NCBI RefSeq assembly: GCF_007671685.1
Contig: NZ_VCNL01000001.1
Location: forward strand, 310,001-374,000
Source: Halorubrum salsamenti
Lineage (GTDB): Archaea > Halobacteriota > Halobacteria > Halobacteriales > Haloferacaceae
Length of the DNA stretch: 64,000 bases
Reading direction: 5' to 3'
The notes under the pieces are model-generated. The model was not told the DNA's origin, ran no database searches, and worked only from the letters and a program-made list of their open reading frames with translations. Shown here piece after piece: positions 21,656 to 22,630 of this stretch (its first letter is position 1; each line of letters opens with the position of its first letter). The position numbers and the translations under genes are program-made.

Positions 21656-22630
21656 TCACCGTCCGTCGAGTACAGACCGGGCCCGTTCGATGACCGCGGC
21701 GCGGACCCGCCTCGGATCCGCGTTCGCCCCGCCGCCGAACCGAACGGGCGTCTCCCTCGCGATCGACTCGACGACTCGGTCCGCGACCGCGTCGACGGTC
21801 GCGCCCTCCTTCCGCCGGGCGAGGTCGTCGACGACGCGCTCGAATCGCTCGTCGGTGGCGTACGCCGCGGCGATCGCCTCGGGGTCGTCGAGCGGCGGAA
21901 CGTCGCGGTCGCCCCCTCGGCGGCTCTCGTCTGCATCTGTCGCCTCTCCCCCCGCGAGCAGCTTCCCGCGTCCCCCGCGCTTGTTGCGCACGACGACCCC
22001 GGCGGCGGGACCGTCGCGCCACGCCGACTCGGGAATCACGTACGCGCCTGGGTCGAAGTCGCGGCCGTTCACCTCGCGCTCGACCGCGTTGACCGGATCG
22101 AGGCCGACCCCCTCGAAGATGGACGCGGCGGCGTCGGGCGGTCGGAACGCCCCCGCCTTCGGTCCCTCTCGCGACTTCGCCTTCGGTCCCTCTCGCGACT
22201 TCGCCTTCGGTCCCTCTCGCGACTTCGCCTTCGGTCCCTCTCGCGATCCCGCCTCCGACCCCTCCCCCCTCCCGATCCACACGTCGGATCCGAGGAACGG
22301 CGGGAGCCGGTCCCAGTCGTAGTCAGTTCCCCGATGGTGGGTGGCGACGCCGAAGAAGACCACGTCCTCGGGGTCGTCGACGGCGTCTCGGAGGGCTTCG
22401 CGATCGAAGCGATCTCGGACATGCCTCACGGCGGACCGGAGCGCGAGCGGGACCGCTTCCGGCCCCGAGTACGTCGTTTCGGGGTCGCCGAAGCTGAGGA
22501 GGCCGGACTCGTCCATCCGAAATCGGAGTCCCGTCCCGTCGATCAGTTCGAGGAGCCAGAGGTGACCCGTGAGGAGCCCCTCGGCGGCCTGCGAGCCGCG
22601 AACGTCGGGGAGGGATGGAAACGAGCGCAT
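21656..22630 (-). CDS. RNA/DNA-ligase-like nucleotidyltransferase fold protein, catalytic Lys missing
   Basis: 324 residues from [10 protein letters not shown]. The order of motifs resembles an ATP-dependent RNA ligase domain: [13 protein letters not shown] (residues 27-39, motif I region), [21 protein letters not shown] (about 92-112, like the motif III/IIIa 'Yd..P.f..fDv' block), [10 protein letters not shown] (209-218, motif IV) and GKLL (222-225, motif V). The motif I lysine (KxDG) is Leu-29 and the motif IV Glu is Ala, so ligase chemistry seems lost. A 24-base repeat encodes four copies of SREGPKAK/G in the middle. It lies directly upstream of gyrB. The family match is from motif reading only; the fold is inferred. 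Confidence 0.55.
22155..22250. repeat. In-frame 24-base tandem repeat, 4 copies, in the ligase-like gene
   Basis: Four consecutive 24-base units (the last diverges at its end) encode SREGPKAK-type octapeptides at about residues 129-160 of the ligase-like protein. The units are nearly identical at the DNA level, which indicates recent slippage. The basic Lys/Arg content is unusual in an acidic halophilic proteome and might contact nucleic acid. Confidence 0.9.

Follow-up and report, generated by a model that had tools for sequence, protein, structure and literature searches.

The window, by which we mean the whole stretch of 64,000 nucleotides from Halorubrum salsamenti analysed here, carries gyrB and gyrA on its minus strand and, upstream of gyrB, a gene for a protein of 324 residues (Table 1). 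An earlier note on this DNA had placed a ligase-like protein there; the frame is open exactly between the ends given in Table 1, and it lies on the minus strand, which that note did not state. The divergent gene on the other side is one we take to be iron-alcohol-dehydrogenase-like (EgsA-like). The encoded protein is acidic overall (58 Asp and Glu residues versus 50 Lys and Arg). Since net acidity is usual for haloarchaeal proteins, this charge is uninformative. Seven of its ten lysines fall in a basic tandem repeat, the others being K217, K223 and K274. The repeat had been read as a hint of nucleic-acid binding, a suggestion that finds no support: its 24-bp units are tandem copies without a mismatch, and among the family members aligned only that of H. 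salsamenti shows them. It is a species-specific expansion and not a conserved binding motif.

Table 1. Position of the gene, its motif sites and its neighbours in the window
Feature	Coordinates	Strand	Remarks
CDS of lysine-less Rnl2-type protein	21656..22630	minus	324 aa + stop, ATG at 22630
Motif I site, E28-L29-I-D-G32	22535..22549	minus	nucleotidyl Lys replaced by Leu29; aligned with EKxDG of intact members
Motif Ia site, F47-G-D-P50	22481..22492	minus	Arg of intact members replaced by Pro50
Motif III site, F92-F-G-V95-A	22343..22357	minus	Glu replaced by Val95
Motif IIIa site, L113-G-S115-D-V-W118	22277..22294	minus	adenine-stacking Phe replaced by Ser115
Tandem repeat, (EGPKAKSR)n	22154..22246	minus	24 bp x 3.9, 100% match; low-confidence model loop
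Motif IV site, A209-A210-G-V-V-V214	21989..22006	minus	Glu replaced by Ala210
Motif V region, K217-R-G-G-R-G-K223-L-L225	21956..21982	minus	K217 nearly invariant in family
C-terminal helical region	21659..21883	minus	aligned with Rnl2 C-terminal region (T259, R262, R292)
gyrB promoter-like block, CACGCCCGCGCGCGTGCGCC..CTTTATAA	21596..21625	minus	conserved with or without gene inserted upstream
gyrB	19629..21566	minus	neighbour
gyrA	17122..19632	minus	neighbour
Iron-alcohol-dehydrogenase-like/EgsA-like gene (presumed), divergent	22773..23984	plus	adjoins gyrB in Halorubrum without insert

Searched alone against Pfam, NCBIfam, the PDB and PHROGs, the 324-residue protein gave nothing usable; it did not reach Pfam RNA_ligase (PF09414) and had no NCBIfam match to TIGR01209 (Rnl3). 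The PADLOC models for anti-phage defence matched none of five proteins tested, this one included. Homology to PF09414 over the whole length was obtained through intact relatives and hhalign. The protein is 47% identical to L089, a haloarchaeal member with a whole active site, and lysine-less members can be aligned with intact ones along their entire length. Four intact members (L056, L064, L065 and L066), found independently, score above the PF09414 cut-off (E 1.6e-21 to 2.4e-16); the same four are matched with E 1e-111 to 1e-120 by an HMM of 31 members from the side of the family that holds the H. salsamenti protein, one of which (L025) keeps the lysine. When a profile of lysine-less members only was compared with phage and plasmid RNA ligases by hhalign, the probability was 99.4, with E 1.2e-21 over 276 columns. 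These ligases, including gene 217 of the halovirus HGTV-1, can be aligned over the full length, and the profile to which they had been added matched PAB1020 (6.8e-7) and T4 Rnl2 (1.3e-3, aligned to the C-terminus) in the PDB. Intact members also match the PHROG RNA ligase (E 5.8e-22) and are named 'RNA ligase family protein' in RefSeq. We conclude that the ancestor of the 324-residue protein was an ATP-dependent RNA ligase of the Rnl2 type, whose motif order has been kept.

In an alignment of 28 family members, some proved to have a complete RNA-ligase active site, with motifs that read LLEKVDG, FFGEA, GFDVW, GPAEGVVV and RAK. Two replacements had been proposed before, and both hold on alignment: LLELIDG places Leu29 at the motif I lysine, and GPAAGVVV places Ala210 at the motif IV Glu. 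To these we add Val95 for the motif III Glu, Ser115 for the motif IIIa Phe and Pro50 for the motif Ia Arg, so that five of the six examined active-site positions are replaced; the motif V lysine, K223, is retained. The stretch YDWDRLPPF, formerly assigned to motif IIIa, sits between motifs III and IIIa; the true motif IIIa is LGSDVW (residues 113-118), where T4 Rnl2 has ..FDI... The mapping follows the profile alignment to T4 Rnl2, in which K35, R55, E99, F119, the motif IV Glu (which we take to be E204) and K225 correspond to Leu29, Pro50, Val95, Ser115, Ala210 and K223, respectively. At position 225, opposite T4 K227, the protein has Leu, and intact members have a hydrophobic residue there as well. 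Residue roles were taken from parts of PMC3149579 and PMC4599027. As for a lysine placed elsewhere in the chain, the only conserved candidate is K217, which intact members carry too.

Further information was obtained from predicted structures. With 43 viral ligases in the alignment, AlphaFold gave a confident model (mean pLDDT 83.5, pTM 0.67), of low confidence in the repeat loop and at residues 229-243; a model made without ligases, from the protein and six Halorubrum proteins, had a pLDDT of 42.9 and was set aside. Each of the 40 best Foldseek matches in the PDB was an RNA ligase, a tRNA ligase or the putative Aquifex ligase 3QWU. T4 Rnl2 came first (E 6e-7); its whole-chain TM was low (0.40-0.45) and the rmsd large, which may reflect a different placement of the domains. 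VIA-align superposed the model on T4 Rnl2, the closest solved structure, with Z 16.5 and 2.7 A over 185 residues. In BFVD the first match was nameless and many others were RNA ligases. Profile alignments run through the C-terminal domain, while the structural match mostly stops at residue 228-262. The nucleotidyltransferase fold is thus kept in the predicted model, which shows compatibility with the ligase fold and no independent proof of it, since the alignment contained ligases. Sequence, profile and model together support the earlier idea of a pseudo-ligase of the covalent nucleotidyltransferase kind. Fold and motif order are shared with the Rnl2-type ligases of PF09414 (T4 Rnl2 2HVQ/2HVR, TbREL1 1XDN, Naegleria 5COT) and, in profile alignment, the C-terminal region resembles that of T4 Rnl2; the protein differs from these enzymes in its five replaced positions and in having no direct PF09414 match.

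A single-protein search found matches in 36 of 59 relatives, and among 52 Halorubrum genomes a homologue was present in 36 and absent from 16 by protein search; the named matches, at 69-73% identity in six species, place this DNA close to Halorubrum. Profile searches extended the family to 151 of 292 Halobacteria genomes. In a sample of the phylum, 28 of 294 genomes matched, 27 of them in the order of H. salsamenti and the remaining one (G423) weakly (E about 1e-9). The family alignments picked up no relatives when viral contigs were scanned. Conservation of the Leu29 site in other haloarchaea had been proposed as a check, and here 102 of 135 distinct family proteins have no lysine at that site; 27 have the full triad K/E/E at positions 29, 95 and 210, and in six the lysine is present and the triad incomplete. 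E210 is missing from every lysine-less protein, and E95 survives in five of them (L131, L141, L142, L144 and L147). Other positions are nearly invariant among the 135: E28 and G211 are present in all, H23, G32 and E186 in 134, Y104 in 133 and W25 in 132, and position 217 holds Lys in 128 proteins and Arg in six.

The loss was examined column by column in thinned sets of 24 intact and 71 lysine-less proteins. Of the 95 columns conserved at 90% or more in the intact set, those least retained in the lysine-less one were K29 and E210 (both 0), followed by E95 and H226 (0.04 each), F115 (0.11) and then S111 and R50. The four remaining tested active-site columns all rank among the eight least retained of 94 (hypergeometric p 2.3e-5, a value that ignores relatedness). 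K223, kept in H. salsamenti, is found in only 7 of the 71, and 29 columns reach at least 90% in both sets. In hand-picked, non-random pairs, dN/dS was 0.14-0.48 for 22 lysine-less pairs and 0.11-0.21 for five intact ones; since the former values are mostly the higher, constraint is relaxed. Selective loss of the catalytic columns together with this range of dN/dS makes the lysine-less members look like maintained pseudoenzymes. We also observed a His-Pro pair after motif V (H 0.96 and P 1.00 in intact members). As H226 drops as sharply as known catalytic residues, it may belong to the active site of the subfamily without having been recognised as such. In one Halorubrum genome (G018, locus L186) the gene is broken up into three reading frames and is likely a pseudogene.

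The H. salsamenti genome was searched for an intact partner of the protein; it has no PF09414 match and no Rnl3, and RtcB is present. Another intact Rnl2-like family, with about 365 residues (P0003, P0004), was considered as partner and is absent from this genome. That family (LEKFDGS, YAENL, EGVVVR) is represented in 11 of the 52 Halorubrum genomes; at two loci (L093:5789-6937 and L116:5850-6944) its gene directly follows an intact member of the family studied here.

Regarding how often the lysine was lost, we favour several losses. The lysine state changes nine times on the tree of 135 rows and six times on that of 97; if loss is irreversible, 13 and 8 losses are needed, respectively. In the tree with a viral outgroup the starred branches force two changes. 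A single lysine-less clade was not rejected by the AU test (dlnL 45.2, p 0.077). Within one genus (g17), six genomes read KEE, KEA, QEA, QAA, LVA and YVA at positions 29/95/210. Family members are also present on plasmids, among them relatives named 'hypothetical protein' in RefSeq on Haloferax, Haloarcula and Natronomonas plasmids, so horizontal transfer could contribute to mixed triads.

The gene lies upstream of gyrB, between it and the dehydrogenase-like gene, in 23 of the 36 matching Halorubrum genomes, the dehydrogenase gene going undetected at one of these loci (L016/L182). Ten others carry the gene or a remnant elsewhere (G025, G013, G011, G001, G061, G033, G009, G555, G552 and G018, the last frameshifted); these positions cover 33 of the 36 genomes, G557, G551 and G020 being left out (the matches in G020 and G551 are weak). 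Among 17 examined Halorubrum whose gyrB has no such neighbour, the dehydrogenase gene is directly beside gyrB in 10, which indicates either gain or loss of our gene at this site. In genus g32 the gene directly follows gyrA in all five genomes, with a gap of 17 nt in L150. Of 100 non-Halorubrum loci (L067-L166), gyrase lies within 5 kb in only two, both of them in g32. When neighbouring genes were clustered, no partner proved to be conserved beyond the gyrase groups; a cluster in 16 loci, presumably of PAS-domain proteins, was put down to chance, as these genomes carry many kinases of this kind. A tree constrained to unite the two gyrase-linked groups was 2.6 log units better (p-AU 0.556), and they may form one clade. 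The place next to gyrase, stressed in the earlier note, therefore holds for 23 of 36 matching Halorubrum and 5 of 5 g32 genomes and is missing at 98 of the 100 loci outside Halorubrum. It is a feature of certain lineages, with g32 as a suggestive case, and does not characterise the family.

Two observations concern gyrB itself. A near-palindromic block, CGCCCGCGCGCGTGCG, lies just upstream of the gyrB TATA box and is kept across Halorubrum (21596-21625; L031-L036, L199-L201); it could act in regulation or respond to supercoiling. In six genomes (L213-L218, from G011, G007, G061, G025, G001 and G066), gyrB contains extra in-frame sequence at two sites, after query residue 508 or after residue 442, and both insertions tested (L214 and L218) contain Pfam Intein_splicing.

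Canonical ligation requires a Lys-AMP intermediate. With K29, E95, F115 and E210 gone, ligase-AMP should not form by the canonical route, as step 1, the formation of Lys-AMP, should not occur without K29 and the ATP-site residues. We lean with moderate confidence towards an Rnl2 protein that no longer catalyses and would have been retained to bind nucleic acid. Since the fold and the invariant residues shared with intact enzymes persist, a substrate-binding body surviving as a pseudoenzyme would be the most economical reading. This body may be retained for recognising nicks or RNA ends, or for clamping on a partner complex, and E28, H23, W25, Y104, E186, G211, K217 and R292 would provide a conserved working or folding surface. 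It has been described, in part of PMC4599027, that the C-terminal domain of T4 Rnl2 alone is sufficient for efficient substrate binding. Coupling to gyrase would be possible in the Halorubrum and g32 lineages; elsewhere the gene is unlinked. It is tempting, though decidedly unlikely to be right in full, to propose that an Rnl2 ligase turned, probably several times, into a nick- or end-sensing protein that is wired to gyrase in Halorubrum and g32. If so, a dead RNA ligase would take part in controlling the topology of DNA or the protection of ends.

Nucleic-acid binding could also be gone, the fold now serving as a protein-binding scaffold or regulator that contacts gyrase where linked and other partners elsewhere. 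The operon-like arrangement on opposite sides of gyrase in the two groups (after gyrA in g32, before gyrB in Halorubrum) and their possible union in one clade argue for such a role. However, none of the other 98 non-Halorubrum loci has gyrase nearby, no other neighbour is conserved, and gyrB owns a conserved promoter-like block; we consider a scaffold unlikely, if conceivable. Were the ligase instead dispensable and the lysine-less genes drifting to loss, the patchy presence of the family, the frameshifted G018 copy, the mostly looser dN/dS and the species-specific repeat would be as expected. Yet all 102 proteins without K29 are encoded by open frames, E28, G211, H23 and E186 are kept in all or all but one of the 135, and dN/dS is below 0.5 in every one of the 22 lysine-less pairs, which makes simple decay distinctly improbable.

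Finally, the protein could still be an enzyme, with a migrated nucleophile (K217), with activity on pre-adenylated ends only (step 3), or with another reaction in the pocket. K217 is the one conserved lysine of the family. In Diplonema DpRNL the Rnl2 ATP pocket was modelled as rewired with a different lysine (part of PMC4599027), and active-site variants of T4 Rnl2tr still join pre-adenylated ends (part of PMC3149579). Nevertheless, E210, E95, F115 and R50 were lost together with K29, K217 is equally conserved in intact members and hence no compensation, and K223 is rarely kept; we regard surviving catalysis as highly improbable. The non-catalytic, nucleic-acid-binding protein remains our preferred reading.

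Pseudoenzymes are well studied for kinases. In searches of the open-access literature we found no pseudo-RNA-ligase family, haloarchaeal or other. Intact, half-degenerate and lysine-less forms coexist here in one family and even in one genus (g17), so the path from enzyme to pseudoenzyme is directly testable. The label 'hypothetical protein' conceals a large set of RNA-ligase relatives, and annotation by fold only would wrongly name the lysine-less members ligases. A named member is WP_012945014.1 of Haloterrigena turkmenica, 'RNA ligase family protein' in RefSeq (tblastn 41% identity over 92% of the 324-residue protein, E 1e-38), which is 66.9% identical to L089, whose intact group keeps K/E/E. 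The archaeal RNA ligase Rnl3 (TIGR01209; PAB1020, 2VUG) belongs to the same superfamily, with weak profile similarity to intact members, and is a separate family; it has been linked to HARP (part of PMC12153264). The available part of a review of archaeal ligases (PMC4606414) makes no mention of a haloarchaeal Rnl2-type family, and the ligase that makes some H. salinarum circular RNAs is described as unknown in part of PMC12558985. According to part of PMC8651126, HGTV-1 encodes two Rnl2-family ligases; gene 217 is homologous to the 324-residue protein over its whole length, keeps the catalytic residues and groups outside the haloarchaeal family. One intact ligase in a haloarchaeal genome (L113, in G213) groups with the HGTV-1 ligases and is possibly of viral origin.
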